A DNA stretch of 64,000 bases, taken from positions 1 to 64,000 of the forward strand of contig NZ_JAUSBX010000063.1 of the NCBI RefSeq assembly GCF_030651835.1. The letters run 5' to 3'. Source of the stretch: Methylicorpusculum sp. Its GTDB lineage: Bacteria; Pseudomonadota; Gammaproteobacteria; Methylococcales; Methylomonadaceae. Shown here one piece after another: positions 6,775-37,174 of this stretch (position 1 is the first letter of the stretch; each line of letters opens with the position of its first letter). Made by a program: the position numbers and the translations under genes. Under the pieces are notes generated by a model. It worked only from the letters and a program-made list of their open reading frames with translations. It was not told the DNA's origin and made no database searches.

Positions 6775-6911
6775 CTAAGGATTACGTCATAAATAACTTC
6801 CCGGAATTCGGATTGTGTCAAACCGCACGATTATCCCAGCAAATCTCAATTTGAAGGAAAAAAGGGTTGGGAGAAGCTTTTCGAGGAAGTTATTTGTAGC
6901 GATATCCTAAG
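6775..6911. mobile_element. MITE-like element, copy B, ending over a stop codon
   Basis: This 137-bp element has the same ends as copy A: CCTAAGGATTACGTC at the left and the inverse of CTTAGGATATCGC at the right, each followed inward by AAATAACTTCC. The left 60 bp match the right end of copy A in inverted orientation with only a few differences. The middle (about 6838-6887) matches one arm of the palindromic repeat at 14527-14577 at about 47 of 50 positions, so the element looks chimeric. Its right terminus includes the TAG stop codon (6907-6909) of the GGDEF/EAL gene. Confidence 0.65.
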
Positions 6912-10884: not shown

Positions 10885-10991
10885 GAAGGTATGGGATGTG
10901 TCTATCGAGGACCGCCGTGAACCCCTCCATGGGGGCTTGACGGCAGCAATCCTTGCTGCCGACATCCTCGCTAGCCACACCCCATACCTTC
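10885..10991. repeat. Clover-like palindrome, shared core, copy 1
   Basis: Outer arms 10885-10904 and 10972-10991 pair at 18 of 20 positions. The core holds two hairpins, CCCC/GGGG around a CATG loop (922-934 of this kilobase) and GGCAGCAA/TTGCTGCC (10942-10960). The core sequence recurs at 14581-14625 (inverted), 36880-36930 and 37075-37127, whereas these outer arms do not. No gene was recognised between 10720 and 11166. Confidence 0.75.
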
Positions 10992-12596: not shown

Positions 12597-14483
12597 CTAA
12601 TCAGCATCACTGACCGGCGCAGCAAATGCGTCGGCAACCAATTCATCGGTATTGTCACCTGTCAGTGATTTTAAAAAAGAGACCAGATCATTGACCTCCT
12701 GATCACTTAATTTTAAAGGTTGTATTAATGGATCCAGGTTTTCATTAGCGATGCCTCCGCGATTGTAAAACTCGACAACGGCTTTAAGCGTGGCCAATGA
12801 ACCGTTATGCATATAAGGCGCCGTCAAAGCGGCATTACGCAAGGTCGGTGTTTTGTATTTCCAGCGGTCTTCGGGATTTTGCGTCACTTCATAACGCCCC
12901 AGATCATTGGCTTTTGCTTCCGAAACCTGCGCGATCAGATCCCTATCCACGTCAATGAAAATACCGGGAGCCACCTGGATTTTTCTTTTCGCATCGGGTG
13001 TGCCCATCGCTTCGAGATAACCGATTCCGGTATTGTGGAAGGTATTATCGGTTAATAAGGCGTCATGAGAGCCAATAGTGTGGCAGGCTGAACAGTTAGC
13101 TTTACCGGTAAAGAGTGTTAATCCGCGTTGTTCCGCCCCAGTCAAGGCGCGCTTATCATTGCCGTATTGCCATCGATCGAAAGGCGAATTGCCGGAAACT
13201 AGCGATCGTTCATAACTGGCTAAGGCCATGCCTAAAGTTTCCATGCTGGGGCCTTTGCCAAAGACTTTGGCAAATTGTTCTGCATAATCATCGGTAACGT
13301 TGAGCTTGTCGATGACATAACCGATGGACGGGTTGGCCATTTCATTGTGAGCTAACAACGGTCCCCACACTTGTTGTTCAAGCGTTGACTCTCGGCCGTC
13401 ATGAAATAATACGGTGGAATAACCTACGTTATAAAGGGTCGGACTATTGCGTTTAACACTGCGGCCTTCAATCCCCACCGCCGTAGCCATTTCGTTGCTG
13501 GTAAAACCTTGTTCGGGAATATGGCACATCGCGCAAGAAAACGTATTATTGAGCGACAGGCGGCGGTCATAAAACAGCTTTCTGCCTAACTGAATTTTTT
13601 CATTGGTCACTTTATTTTCAGCCGGTTGCGGCATGGCGGGCAAGCCCAGCGGAGGTGTTCGAACACGTTTCATCAAATCCGCTGATCGACCCGTTCTGTG
13701 ACTCAGCGCTAGGCTTTGTGTGACGTAACCGGTTTTTTCATAGCTGGTTTTATAGTCACCCGGTCTATAGGGGTTAAGCGGATTGGAAACCTCTAATCGG
13801 GGATCTGAAGACTCGTTTTTATTTAGCAGGGTTTTGATGTCATTGATCAAAGTGTCCGGATGAAGAAAAGATGTGCTGTAAATATTGCGAATGTGTTTAT
13901 CGGTATCGATCAGATAAACGCGCAGAATATGCGAATAAGTCCCCGTGAATTCGCCTTTTTCATCATAGACTTTCTGAATGTTTTGTTTATAGCTGGACAA
14001 AATGGGTTGCAGTTCTTGCTCAGATACCGTCGTCAAAAAATGCCAGTCCACACCGTTACCGCTAAGTCCCTCACTGTATTGCCGCATTTTATCGGGCGTG
14101 TCATGGCCGGGATCGAAACTGAGGGTGACAAGCCGGACAAGCGAGGCCAGTTCCGGATCTTTTTGCAGCCGGTTTTTAATTTTATGAAATACCGCCGTCG
14201 CCAATGGACAGCCGTTAATATCGCTGCAGGTGGAATAAATGAAACTGAGCAGAACCGGCTTATCGCCCATCAAACTGTGCAGTTTTATGGGCTTGCCATC
14301 GCTGGTCAGAACGTTGCCATCATCAGCTGAGCCGATGGCCGGAAGACTGTAACTGCCCACAGAGGGGGGGGAAAACTCCAAGGCGCCGTAGCCGGGTGCC
14401 ACCGTTTGCGGACTGTTACCGGCATACGCTGCTGACACACCCGATATCAGCAACCCTAACACCATCAATTTCGACGTTTTCAT
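12597..14483 (-). CDS. SCO1/SenC-MauG fusion, last gene of the methanethiol oxidase cluster
   Basis: The 628-residue protein has a signal peptide (ending near AYAG) and two domains. The N-terminal part (about 55-225) is an SCO1/SenC thioredoxin-like copper domain with STCSDINGCPLA, a CX5C pair rather than the usual CX3C, and a later candidate copper-ligand His in TYSHILR. The C-terminal part (about 260-615) is a dihaem MauG/cytochrome-c-peroxidase domain with two CXXCH sites, CAMCH and CSACH. In the characterised Hyphomicrobium mtoX operon, SCO and MauG-like proteins are encoded separately beside the methanethiol oxidase. Here they form one polypeptide. A role in copper delivery and/or cofactor maturation of MtoX in the periplasm is inferred. 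It is transcribed after mtoX with a 259-bp repeat-bearing gap. Confidence 0.88.
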   Translation of the reverse strand: MKTSKLMVLGLLISGVSAAYAGNSPQTVAPGYGALEFSPPSVGSYSLPAIGSADDGNVLTSDGKPIKLHSLMGDKPVLLSFIYSTCSDINGCPLATAVFHKIKNRLQKDPELASLVRLVTLSFDPGHDTPDKMRQYSEGLSGNGVDWHFLTTVSEQELQPILSSYKQNIQKVYDEKGEFTGTYSHILRVYLIDTDKHIRNIYSTSFLHPDTLINDIKTLLNKNESSDPRLEVSNPLNPYRPGDYKTSYEKTGYVTQSLALSHRTGRSADLMKRVRTPPLGLPAMPQPAENKVTNEKIQLGRKLFYDRRLSLNNTFSCAMCHIPEQGFTSNEMATAVGIEGRSVKRNSPTLYNVGYSTVLFHDGRESTLEQQVWGPLLAHNEMANPSIGYVIDKLNVTDDYAEQFAKVFGKGPSMETLGMALASYERSLVSGNSPFDRWQYGNDKRALTGAEQRGLTLFTGKANCSACHTIGSHDALLTDNTFHNTGIGYLEAMGTPDAKRKIQVAPGIFIDVDRDLIAQVSEAKANDLGRYEVTQNPEDRWKYKTPTLRNAALTAPYMHNGSLATLKAVVEFYNRGGIANENLDPLIQPLKLSDQEVNDLVSFLKSLTGDNTDELVADAFAAPVSDAD

Positions 14484-14526: not shown

Positions 14527-14688
14527 AGCAATTCTCAATTTAAAGGAAAAAAGGGTAGGGAGAAGCTTTTCGAGGATGTCGGCAGCAGGGATGCTGCCGT
14601 CAAGCCCCCAATGAGGGGTTTACGGCGTTTCTCGAAAGGCTTTTCCCAGCCCAAAGTGACATTGAAAATATCAAACTGGAAATTGCTG
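14527..14688. repeat. Clover-like palindrome, shared core, copy 2 (inverted)
   Basis: Inner arms 14558-14574 and 14631-14647 pair well (GGGAGAAGCTTTTCGAG against GGGAAAAGCCTTTCGAG), and an outer CAGCAATT/AATTGCTG pair closes the element. The core has GGCAGCA/TGCTGCC (14581-14598) and CCCC/GGGG (about 14605-14618). It lies between mtoX and the SCO-MauG gene, so it would be folded within a shared transcript. It could stabilise or partially terminate the upstream mRNA. Confidence 0.75.
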
Positions 14689-14742
14689 TTAAGAACCTGT
14701 TTTATCAACAGGTTCTTAATCAGGACAAGCCGAGGCATTACC

Positions 14743-16131
14743 TCATGGATGTTTAGCCAAGACCGATTGTTGAACGGGTAAATTTGCAGCATATAAAGAG
14801 TATGCGCCAAACCGCATTTGATGCGCCCGGCCCAGTTTTTCCTTGATGAAATCAATAGCAAATTGCTGTTTCAAGGCTTTGCCGTCCCAATGGTACAGTT
14901 TGAAGAACTGCTCATTGTCAGTGCCTTTTTTGTCCCAATTGGCCAGCAATGAAGAGGTGTAATAAAGCCGTTTACCATCCCAGCTGGAGGAGACCATATT
15001 GACTTGAGCGCCAATTTTTTCCTCGTATATTTGCTTGGGATTAAACGGGTCGGAAATATCGAAACCACGGGTTTTGCCGTCCATGAACGTATTGACCCAA
15101 AGCATTTTGTCATCACTGGAGATGGAAATATCGACAGGTAGCGGAATCTTGCTGGGCTCACCGATATCGGCAACCGCTTTGGCTTGCCATGCACCTTCTT
15201 TATCTTCGTAAATCAACCAGATTTTTGAAGTAAGTGCGGTGCTGGTGAAGCAATAATTATTATTGGCACCCCATGCACATCGAATTTCCAGGGGCGCGCC
15301 GGGCACATCAAGCACTTTTTTAGGTTTACGGGCATGAAGATCCCACTGCACAACCGTATTGCCGAAACGCTTCATGGCTTCCTGATCATTAAGCATTTTG
15401 CCGAAATCCATCATGTAATTCGACCAACCGGTAAACGAGGAGGTCAGCATCAGGTTACGCCGGGGCAACACACGCACATCGTAGCCGTAACCGTCGGCAT
15501 AATTTCCGGTTTTAACCGCGCCTTGCAGATTACTGTCGGTAGGTGTCCAGTAAGTCGACACATACTCACCTTCATTGGTGTATTCAACCAATCCGGTACG
15601 GCCGCCATGATCCTTGTTGTTGGATAATCCGGTGATCATCATCCGGCCCGGTAACGCATAGGTCGTGTGAGGACCCACGACACCACCGCTTTTGGCGACA
15701 AAGTCGGTAATGACTTTAGTCAACTTGGGTTTAGCTGGATTGGTATGCACATCGAAAATAAAAATCTTGTTGGTATCCAGGCCGCCTGCCCATAAATAAT
15801 GACGGTCATCGGTAAAACCGGAGTGATGCGCTTCATTGCGTCCACCAACGGACAAGGTATTGATGACTTTTCCGTAGCTGGCCGATTTAGGATTGACGTC
15901 AACAGTGACCAATTTGTCTTGCTCATCGCCCACCCCTTCCATGCCTAATGTCCAGACATAAACGAAATCTTCCTGGCCTACAATTTTGGCCATATAAGGC
16001 GACATACAGGTTTCATCGGCTTGCACCGACAATGAGCCCAGGCCGGATAGTGCGATTGTCGATACGGCAAAAAAACTGACTTTTAACAAATTTCGTAGCG
16101 GTTGTGCGGGTTTAATCATTTTTGTTTTCAT
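14743..16131 (-). CDS. mtoX: Methanethiol oxidase (SBP56 family)
   Basis: The product belongs to the selenium-binding-protein-56 family, whose bacterial members include the periplasmic, copper-dependent methanethiol oxidase converting methanethiol with O2 to formaldehyde, sulfide and H2O2. Family features include VGGRNEAHHSGFTDDRHY and the repeated beta-propeller-like strands. Starting at ATG 16131 gives 462 residues with a Sec signal (cleavage near SVQA-DE); an in-frame GTG at 16161 would only lengthen the N-terminus. AAGAAGAG lies about 10 bases upstream of the ATG. The neighbours, a SCO-MauG fusion, DUF4242 and TetR, support the enzyme assignment over a generic selenium-binding role. It could supply formaldehyde to C1 metabolism while detoxifying methanethiol. 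Confidence 0.88.
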   Translation of the reverse strand: MKTKMIKPAQPLRNLLKVSFFAVSTIALSGLGSLSVQADETCMSPYMAKIVGQEDFVYVWTLGMEGVGDEQDKLVTVDVNPKSASYGKVINTLSVGGRNEAHHSGFTDDRHYLWAGGLDTNKIFIFDVHTNPAKPKLTKVITDFVAKSGGVVGPHTTYALPGRMMITGLSNNKDHGGRTGLVEYTNEGEYVSTYWTPTDSNLQGAVKTGNYADGYGYDVRVLPRRNLMLTSSFTGWSNYMMDFGKMLNDQEAMKRFGNTVVQWDLHARKPKKVLDVPGAPLEIRCAWGANNNYCFTSTALTSKIWLIYEDKEGAWQAKAVADIGEPSKIPLPVDISISSDDKMLWVNTFMDGKTRGFDISDPFNPKQIYEEKIGAQVNMVSSSWDGKRLYYTSSLLANWDKKGTDNEQFFKLYHWDGKALKQQFAIDFIKEKLGRAHQMRFGAYSLYAANLPVQQSVLAKHP

Positions 16132-16239
16132 GGTGTCTGCACTCTTCTTGTAGTTTTTCACGCGGCGCCAAAGACCCAGGGCCAGTTTGGCATCCAGTAT
16201 TTGCTTAACCTTTTTAGACTCCTCTTTGTGTTGACTGAA

Positions 16240-16512
16240 TTATTCGCTGGTGGTGGGATCGATGATGGTTTTGATTTGGGAAATTCGGTTGACAGGAAAT
16301 TCGCCCTGTTCAGCGTGCTCGCGGATGGCTGCTTCATCAGGCGCGATATAAATGCAATAAATTTTATTGTCCGTCACATAACTCTCAAGCCATTGAATAT
16401 AAGGCCCCATGTTCTTTAGGATGCTGCATGATTTCTGGGAAATGTGCTGCAACTGATCGGCTGACAATGCGCCTGCATTGGGTATTTCTCTTTCGATGAT
16501 GAATTTGGGCAT
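16240..16512 (-). CDS. DUF4242 small protein
   Basis: The 90-residue protein, beginning MPKFIIEREIPNAGALS, matches the DUF4242 family of ferredoxin-like fold proteins, one member of which is described as a nickel-binding protein. It contains cysteines (KSCSI and IYCIY) and the typical IYIAPDEAAIREHA segment. AAGGAG lies 6 bases before ATG 16512. It is the first gene after tetR, with a candidate operator 22 bp upstream of its start, and precedes mtoX by 108 bp. A metal-handling or chaperone role for the methanethiol oxidase cluster is inference. Confidence 0.75.
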   Translation of the reverse strand: MPKFIIEREIPNAGALSADQLQHISQKSCSILKNMGPYIQWLESYVTDNKIYCIYIAPDEAAIREHAEQGEFPVNRISQIKTIIDPTTSE

Positions 16513-16563: not shown

Positions 16564-17160
16564 TCAGGGTCTGAATAAGTCGTTCAGTAAGTTGTCGATG
16601 CAGTATTTTAAAGGGCTGGTTGATTTTTCAATTTTCATCCTCAACAACGCGCCCTGCCAGCTGTCGACCAGCAAGTTGGCCATCTCTTCCGCTGATTTAT
16701 CAGTTCTGATGGTTCCTTGTTCTTGAGCCTGCTGCAGAGCTGTTCTTAAAAGATCACGGTAGCGTTTAACGGCAACCTGTAATGATGCCTGGCAGAGCGG
16801 ACTGGTATCGCTGATTTCGCCCATTAAATTGCCTAACAGACATCCGCCTTTAAATTCCGCTTTTTCAGCACCCTCAATGAGTTCGGCATAATAGCGTGCG
16901 AGCGCACCCAGCGCATTTCCGTCATTGTTCTGCATGTGTCCGGAAAGTTCCTGGATAAAAGGCTCGATATAGTGCTGAATAACTTCAGCTCCAAAGTTTT
17001 CCTTGCTACCGAAATAATTATAAAAGGACCCTTTTGGAATATTGACGGCGTCCAAAATCTCCTTCAATCCTGTGCCGTGATAACCTTGAGCCATGAGTAA
17101 GGCAACACCTTGGCTCAACAAGTTTTCACGATTGATTTGTTTTTGATTTTTTTCTGCCAT
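16564..17160 (-). CDS. TetR-family regulator of the methanethiol oxidase cluster
   Basis: The 198-residue protein has an N-terminal helix-turn-helix (about 15-60: GYHGTGLKEILDAVNIPKGSFYNYFGSKENF) typical of TetR. Its ligand-binding C-terminal domain contains GGCLLGNLMGEIS, a pattern I associate with AcuR-like TetR proteins that sense small electrophilic or organosulfur-related metabolites. ATG 17160 is chosen over an upstream TTG (17166) because a good -10 hexamer ends only 6 bases upstream, which implies a leaderless mRNA starting at or next to the ATG. An operator-like palindrome in its own promoter and another before the next gene suggest autoregulation and repression of DUF4242-mtoX-SCO/MauG. 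The inducer is unknown; methanethiol or a related sulfur compound is a guess. Confidence 0.88.
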   Translation of the reverse strand: MAEKNQKQINRENLLSQGVALLMAQGYHGTGLKEILDAVNIPKGSFYNYFGSKENFGAEVIQHYIEPFIQELSGHMQNNDGNALGALARYYAELIEGAEKAEFKGGCLLGNLMGEISDTSPLCQASLQVAVKRYRDLLRTALQQAQEQGTIRTDKSAEEMANLLVDSWQGALLRMKIEKSTSPLKYCIDNLLNDLFRP

Positions 17161-17166
17161 GTGCAA

Positions 17167-36762: not shown

Positions 36763-36845
36763 AAATGCCGGCTATAAACGCAGTCTTGTGAGCTGGCTTT
36801 ATAGCCATGACAGCAACTCCATGTTTGAACTTTTATGCGGCTTGA

Positions 36846-36950
36846 GGGAAGGCGAAAGCCTTGCGAGGAAGGCCTTAGACCCATCGATGGGGGCTTGACG
36901 GCAGCATCCCTATCCCTGGTGCCGACATCCCCGCAAAGCTTACGCCTCCC
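36846..36950. repeat. Clover-like palindrome, shared core, copy 3
   Basis: Arms 36846-36868 and 36929-36950 pair with one single-base gap. The core has CCATCGATGG and GGGGGCTTGACGGCAGCATCC, the latter shared with the copies at 10.9, 14.6 and 37.1 kb, although the second inner hairpin (around 36900-36923) is degenerate here. It lies in a 495-bp gene-free gap after priA. Confidence 0.7.
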
Positions 36951-37010
36951 CTTTTTTATCATCAAACGGGGAATTACTGATTGCCATTATGCTTGCAAGT
37001 AGGTTGCTGA

Positions 37011-37174
37011 CAGCAATTCTCAGTTTGATCTTTTCTGCGTCATTTTAGGCTGGGAAAAGCCTTTTAAGGATCGCCGTAAACCCTTCCATGGGGGCTTGAC
37101 AGCAGCATCCCTGCAGCCGACATCCTCAAAAAGCTTCCCCCAGCCCTTTTTTTTGTTCAAATTGAGAATTGCTG
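37011..37174. repeat. Clover-like palindrome, shared core, copy 4
   Basis: Outer CAGCAATTCTCA (37011-37022) pairs with TGAGAATTGCTG (37162-37173). Inner arms 37048-37070 and 37123-37145 (GGCTGGGAAAAGCCTTT... against GGCTGGGGGAAGCTTTT...) pair well. The core shares the CCATGGGGGCTTGAC and CAGCATCCCTGC segments. It resembles copy 2 including its outer arms, but in the opposite orientation. It lies upstream of argS. Confidence 0.75.

Follow-up and report, generated by a model that had tools for sequence, protein, structure and literature searches.

A SCO1-MauG fusion gene beside mtoX in Methylicorpusculum sp. and the genome-wide partnership of its family with methanethiol oxidase

Described fusions and the Methylicorpusculum locus

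The closest described systems come from two papers on methanethiol oxidase (MTO), the product of mtoX. According to the text and the Figure 2 legend of Eyice et al. (PMC5739008), the SCO1 and MauG domains are joined within one gene in, for example, Methylophaga thiooxydans. The portions of a 2019 paper that deal with this organism (PMC6548844) describe SCO1 fused to a MauG-type peroxidase, with a predicted signal peptide, in both of its mto clusters, report that these fusion genes are induced on DMS and propose that MTO is processed by SCO1/MauG fusion proteins. In the same portions of these papers MTO is stated to contain Cu (PMC5739008, PMC6548844) and to be periplasmic (PMC5739008). Both papers have SCO1-MauG fusions beside mtoX, and in its main point the present finding is already published: such fusions were described between 2017 and 2019 and are common in methanotrophs. 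A transcriptome paper on Methylococcus lists, in its relevant sections, several MauG-family genes, none of which could be matched to the fusion gene.

The window, by which we mean the whole stretch of 64,000 nucleotides analysed (contig NZ_JAUSBX010000063.1 of a Methylicorpusculum sp.), has both marks of the published mto-cluster fusion, namely SCO1/SenC and CCP_MauG domains in one ORF and mtoX as its neighbour (Table 1). The ORF runs uninterrupted from ATG to stop, and mtoX is the next gene upstream on the same strand. The initial annotation had recognised both domains and their fusion in one protein, which is borne out by the Pfam searches and by the single 628-aa ORF; it had also held that factors encoded separately in the known mtoX operon are covalently joined here, and the fusion is indeed real, but the fused form had been published before, in the passages cited above (PMC5739008, PMC6548844). 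The gene is thus a real, well-formed member of the published fusion family. With the M. thiooxydans fusions, as the same passages describe them, it shares the two domains, a position downstream of mtoX, the proposed role in MTO maturation and, judging by its leader, probably export; it differs from them in its methanotroph-type genome, in the TetR regulator and PF14026 gene upstream, and in a multi-copy repeat between mtoX and the fusion gene.

Table 1. Features of the mto locus in the window (positions are those of the window)
Feature	Position	Strand	Basis
sco-mauG fusion gene, 628 aa	12597..14483	-	ORF, Pfam and NCBIfam searches
Sec-type N-terminal leader, about residues 1-21, ending AYA	14421..14483	-	judged by eye
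SCO1/SenC domain, residues 60-197	13893..14306	-	Pfam PF02630, 54.7 bits, cut-off 22.8
CX5CP motif CSDINGCP, residues 86-93, probable Cu-binding cysteines	14205..14228	-	sequence and alignment
His185, distal His of SCO half	13929..13931	-	invariant: 97/97 fused, 10/10 split rows
CCP_MauG dihaem domain, residues 295-443	13155..13601	-	Pfam PF03150, 177.4 bits, cut-off 25.6
Haem motif 1 CAMCH, residues 317-321	13521..13535	-	invariant in 107-row alignment
His361, at MauG inter-haem Trp93 position	13401..13403	-	alignment
Haem motif 2 CSACH, residues 464-468	13080..13094	-	invariant in 107-row alignment
Tyr573, at MauG axial Tyr294 position	12765..12767	-	PDB match and alignment
Self-complementary multi-copy intergenic repeat, 160 bp, between mtoX and fusion gene	14530..14689	.	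sequence search
mtoX, methanethiol oxidase; ATG start at 16131 also possible	14743..16161	-	NCBIfam NF052453 equivalog, 790.3 bits, cut-off 650
Small PF14026 (SCO4226-like) gene, upstream of mtoX	16240..16512	-	Pfam
TetR-family regulator; best NCBIfam model AcuR, below its cut-off	16564..17166	-	Pfam and NCBIfam

Homologues of the PF14026 and TetR genes lie beside mtoX at many methanotroph loci, including genomes in which the fusion gene is elsewhere. Further copies of the repeat are found in the window at 37010-37170 and 36810-36957, with partial ones at 10902-10970 and 6841-6890, and at least 41 matches, itself included, occur in the organism's own genome at 75-100% identity, most at 84-94%, with 40 of the 232 candidates scored. 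Its appearance is that of a MITE- or REP-like element within the operon. Directly downstream of the mtoX stop lies a hairpin with 13-bp arms (14689-14719), which may uncouple expression of the fusion gene from that of mtoX.

Related loci were gathered in one scan of a species-genome collection, the best 80 of 216 related stretches being kept. In all of these 80, which come from other assemblies, the SCO and MauG parts lie in one ORF; this rules out a frameshift or an assembly join, the artefacts that the initial annotation had considered, as the source of the fusion. As the scan was made with the fused protein and retained just the best stretches, the 80 loci give no ratio of fused to split forms. 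Alignment A1 left out three of them (L026, L080 and L088). For the alignment of 107 rows (97 fused, 10 split), duplicates were dropped by their last 200 residues, as were rows with a MauG part below 300 bits, among them the split pair L208 (294 bits) and the broken L143 and L145. A paralogue with three TAG stops in the window's own genome (L002) was set aside as unremarkable because an intact 355-aa dihaem ORF is present there. At two loci a second, free-standing MauG-like gene follows the fusion gene in tandem (L085, 7924-8856; L088, 2084-3391).

The copper and dihaem halves of the protein

Like the SCO1/SenC chaperones (PF02630), whose Pfam cut-off it passes, the N-terminal half has two Cys and a distal His, which we take to be the expected third Cu ligand of SCO proteins. 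It departs from them in carrying a C-terminal dihaem domain and in having CX5CP in place of CX3CP, the typical copper motif of SCO1/SenC. The CX5CP form is found in 96 of 97 fused rows and in all 10 split rows of the 107-row alignment, R. pomeroyi included, and at 79 of the best 80 of 216 loci, the exception (L080) being without the first 114 query residues; among 12 low-scoring SCO ORFs from the same data, 10 have CX3CP and two have no such motif. The site therefore does differ from that of generic SCO proteins, as the initial annotation had remarked in calling it unusual, but being near-universal in fused and split rows it is the rule within this group and not a peculiarity of the window gene. 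A full-text literature search pairing 'SenC' with 'CX5C' returned no paper. An additional SCO gene, of the CX3CP type, lies near the mto cluster in L073 (3603-4175) and L076 (2535-3101).

In the dihaem half, residues 453-607 also match Cytochrom_C (Pfam PF00034, 34 bits, cut-off 21.3). The nearest NCBIfam model is MbnH (TIGR04039), with 251.8 bits against a cut-off of 362.85, followed by MauG (TIGR03791), with 196 bits against an equivalog cut-off of 443.85; neither cut-off is passed, and for comparison an annotated mau-cluster MauG scores 554.1 bits on TIGR03791. The AlphaFold2 model of the fusion protein (mean pLDDT 79, pTM 0.60, residues 312-343 and 367-385 below 50) has as its top PDB fold match 6e1c, the title of which is MauG-like protein associated with copper homeostasis and which is presumably MbnH. 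MbnH makes kynurenine on MbnP, and MauG is the TTQ-forming enzyme of methylamine dehydrogenase. The window protein thus resembles the MbnH family in its best model and its best fold match, and differs from it in scoring below the cut-off, in its fusion to SCO and in its MtoX neighbour.

The axial Tyr294 of MauG corresponds to Tyr573 (the ends of the PDB match pair 298-575 with 12-296, and alignment A3 was used besides), and Gln103, Pro107 and Glu113 correspond to Gln371, Pro375 and Glu381 in the alignment. In the order Tyr, Gln, Pro and Glu, the equivalents are kept in 96, 95, 93 and 95 of the 97 fused rows, and in every one of the 10 split rows. The axial Tyr is thus present in 106 of 107 rows, the remaining one (L071) being incomplete. 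Bacterial cytochrome c peroxidases have an axial Met at the six-coordinate haem, which in the window protein is replaced by Tyr. Five further dihaem proteins from the window's genome were aligned as well; in them the axial residue is Met in three, His in one and Tyr in one, and the inter-haem position of MauG Trp93 holds Trp in four and Leu in one. In the fusion family 96 of the 97 fused rows and 8 of the 10 split rows carry His at this latter position; L129 has Val there, L135 Ala and L127 Leu. Where MauG has its surface Trp199, every row has Ala or Gly, and the aligned annotated mau-cluster MauG has Ala too.

The part of PMC6405878 that treats these haems reports a Tyr-His ligated haem in MauG and the necessity of Trp93 for TTQ formation; it also reports that BthA, with Ser at this position, still forms bis-Fe(IV), so that a His there is compatible with MauG-like chemistry. 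The name MauG, given in the initial annotation, is apt as regards the dihaem CCP_MauG domain and the equivalents of Tyr294, Gln103, Pro107 and Glu113, and less so as regards the score below the equivalog cut-off, the His for Trp93, the fusion to SCO and a neighbour that is MtoX rather than MauA.

The dihaem half could instead be a peroxidase that removes H2O2 made by MtoX, with maturation left to the SCO half only. Methanethiol degradation is described in PMC6548844, in the portion consulted, as yielding H2O2, the catalytic Glu, Gln and Pro are conserved, and BthA turns over peroxide with a Tyr-His haem and no inter-haem Trp (PMC6405878, same part). We nevertheless regard this reading as unlikely, given the axial Tyr shared with MauG where three of the five same-genome proteins have Met, the MauG-like 6e1c as nearest fold, and the statement in the relevant section of PMC10936201 that R. 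pomeroyi MTO makes no H2O2, yet a dihaem gene follows its mtoX.

Partnership with MtoX across genomes

At 42 of the best 80 of 216 loci mtoX is present as well, in 39 cases on the same strand with at most 362 bp between the frames and in three at a distance of 1.4 to 5.3 kb. It is absent from the fetched DNA of the other 38, some of whose contigs end nearby; in methanotrophs the fusion is often unlinked from mtoX. Searches of these 38 whole genomes recovered an MtoX match elsewhere in 32 (weakest best E 1.9e-101), four of them by fragments only (G001, G013, G025 and G027), and recovered no mtoX in six MAGs whose completeness is not given (G004, G017, G018, G032, G035 and G036). The linkage to mtoX on which the initial annotation had relied therefore holds for the window gene but fails at 38 of these 80 loci; a fusion widespread in the absence of mtoX, which would have spoken against the annotation, is not what the 32 genomes display.

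A sample of 274 genomes of the class contained 27 with a match to the SCO query, 25 of them strong (E <= 1e-41) and two weak (E 3e-13 and 4e-14, both CX3CP). All 25 strong-match genomes carry MtoX, which is above the cut-off in 23, fragmented in G159 and present as pieces in G212. The sole other genome with MtoX of this type, G279, has it cut at a contig edge and has no SCO match, and no SCO match was found in the other 14 class genomes with weak matches to the MtoX model (co-occurrence over the 274 genomes, Fisher p 1.4e-34, kinship ignored). In a sample of 349 genomes of the phylum, which overlaps the first, also counts the window's genome and is likewise uncorrected for kinship, all five genomes with MtoX-type SBP56 have SCO (E <= 1e-33), fused in the window and split in the other four. 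Strong SCO matches are found in none of the 25 genomes of this sample with canonical SBP56, G470 among them having a single weak match of the CX3CP type; in a further four genomes the SBP56 matches are all marginal or odd. A distant SBP56 in G298 (L174), with a hydrophobic leader-like N-terminus and W70, is possibly an intermediate, and its genome has no SCO match at E 1e-12. This co-occurrence (25/25 in the class, 5/5 in the phylum, 32/38 among the unlinked) gives good support to the proposal of the initial annotation that the two halves share a single client, MtoX.

The covalent joining is less constant. The 25 strong-match genomes of the class comprise 17 fused, six split and two broken or unclear cases (G066 and G212), and on a 46-row tree of the joined domains, on which L209 is a long branch of unsure placement, the careful method gives at least four changes of state, at least three of them forced by starred branches. 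A single origin of the fusion is accordingly unsupported, gains and losses being indistinguishable. The SCO part of L209 lies in a 567-aa open frame, and we considered whether its label as split was wrong; this was rejected, as that frame has no haem motif and a separate dihaem ORF exists. The link to MtoX is thus firmer than the covalent fusion.

These counts bear on two further explanations. One is that the SCO half acts as the cell's general copper chaperone, for example for CuA of cytochrome oxidase, and that the linkage to mtoX is a regulatory convenience: apart from the fusion, the window's genome has no SCO1/SenC match, and it has two COX2 matches. We judge this improbable, since 249 of the 274 class genomes are without a strong match, presence tracks MtoX, and a second SCO of the CX3CP type is found nearby in some carriers (L155, L167, L073 and L076). 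The other, that the pair matures a third, unidentified periplasmic protein besides MtoX, takes its strength from the 38 loci without mtoX in the fetched DNA. It appears very improbable, as no recurrent neighbour with an evident client role occurs at these loci, the biggest clusters of neighbours (7 and 5 ORFs) are by eye a SWIM-domain ORF and SecA, and mtoX is present in 32 of the genomes; a new client beside the unlinked fusion genes was rejected for want of a consistent neighbour.

MtoX as the presumed client

MtoX was aligned as 93 rows, among them the window sequence at least twice, with six intermediate or partial sequences and with 25 canonical SBP56 whose genomes have no strong SCO match. 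The four His proposed as Cu ligands (window residues 112, 113, 165 and 447) are kept in MtoX and in canonical SBP56, and since the latter retain all four without a maturase, the Cu site alone demands none. W70, W124 and W394 are present in 93/93 MtoX rows and have a Trp within four residues in 0/25 canonical rows; of the six intermediate or partial rows only L174 has W70. W246 and W355 are also found in 93/93 MtoX rows and are never Trp at the same column in the 25 canonical rows, yet all 25 have a Trp within four residues. The pair W223/W386, proposed to form TTQ in RpMTO in the relevant section of PMC10936201, aligns with W246 and W409 of the window. W409 is also present in 21/25 canonical rows, and the W246 column is Pro in 25/25 of them, with a Trp three residues earlier in three rows inspected.

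Should the dihaem half act on Trp, its natural candidates are the clade-specific ones, and on alignment grounds we place W70, W124 and W394 as candidate substrates beside the published pair. The tie between these Trp and the maturase is a correlation only, as any clade has invariant residues of its own, some of them unrelated to a maturase. MtoX differs from canonical SBP56 also by export, as judged by crude hydrophobicity of untrimmed N-termini, and this difference by itself could account for the need for a copper chaperone in the periplasm. Cys52 of MtoX is conserved in 93/93 rows and falls on the unread X of DETXNSPF, the N-terminal sequence of purified MTO published in PMC5739008 (same passages). 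Nitrous oxide reductase and hydrazine synthase were among the matches of the MtoX model, amid many unrelated propellers of similar Z, and were set aside.

We consider it probable that the fusion is an exported two-headed maturation factor dedicated to periplasmic MtoX. From the domains and motifs observed we infer a copper transfer in which the SCO half, through Cys86, Cys92 and His185, would carry copper and deliver it to the four His of MtoX. With one haem presumably Tyr-His ligated, the MauG/MbnH-like half would use peroxide to reach a high-valent dihaem state, and this state may oxidise one or more Trp of MtoX, a substrate suggested by co-occurrence and residue conservation, to yield a Trp-derived cofactor or copper ligand. 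The fusion would hold both steps, in whichever order they may follow, on one scaffold, but would be optional. This maturase role is supported by the mtoX gene on the same strand, by the co-occurrence in genomes, by the conserved Tyr, Gln, Pro and Glu and the 6e1c fold match, by a partnership that stays while the fused or split state changes at least four times, and, from the parts of the two papers already quoted, by the Cu of MTO and the DMS induction of the M. thiooxydans fusion genes (PMC5739008, PMC6548844). Against it stand the His at the inter-haem Trp position, the canonical SBP56 that keep the four His in the absence of such a maturase, the six MAGs among the 38 without mtoX, and the fact that the fusion is the sole SCO match in a genome with COX2 matches. 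According to the section of PMC10936201 on expression, R. pomeroyi MTO remains able to degrade methanethiol when E. coli BL21 makes it from a plasmid bearing that one gene, so that the maturase may be non-essential or may boost a low basal activity.

More tentatively, and as a possibility that we hold with considerable doubt, the SCO-MauG family might be a third kind of MauG-like protein-modifying enzyme, distinct from both MauG and MbnH and with an inter-haem His replacing the Trp, which would carry out a non-TTQ modification of MtoX at the clade-only Trp (W70, W124, W394, perhaps W246 or W355) coupled to copper loading by the CX5C-SCO half. Such a scheme, if true, would account for canonical SBP56 managing without a maturase although they have the same four His.

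Taken alone, the fusion contributes little beyond published knowledge; what is added to print is the genome-wide partnership with MtoX, the group-wide CX5CP, the swap of His for Trp and the few Trp named as candidates. In the sulfur cycle methanethiol oxidase is a key step, and its cofactor is unsettled; the tight genome-wide partnership makes the question of a maturase testable, and the clade-specific Trp list offers a small number of residues to inspect.
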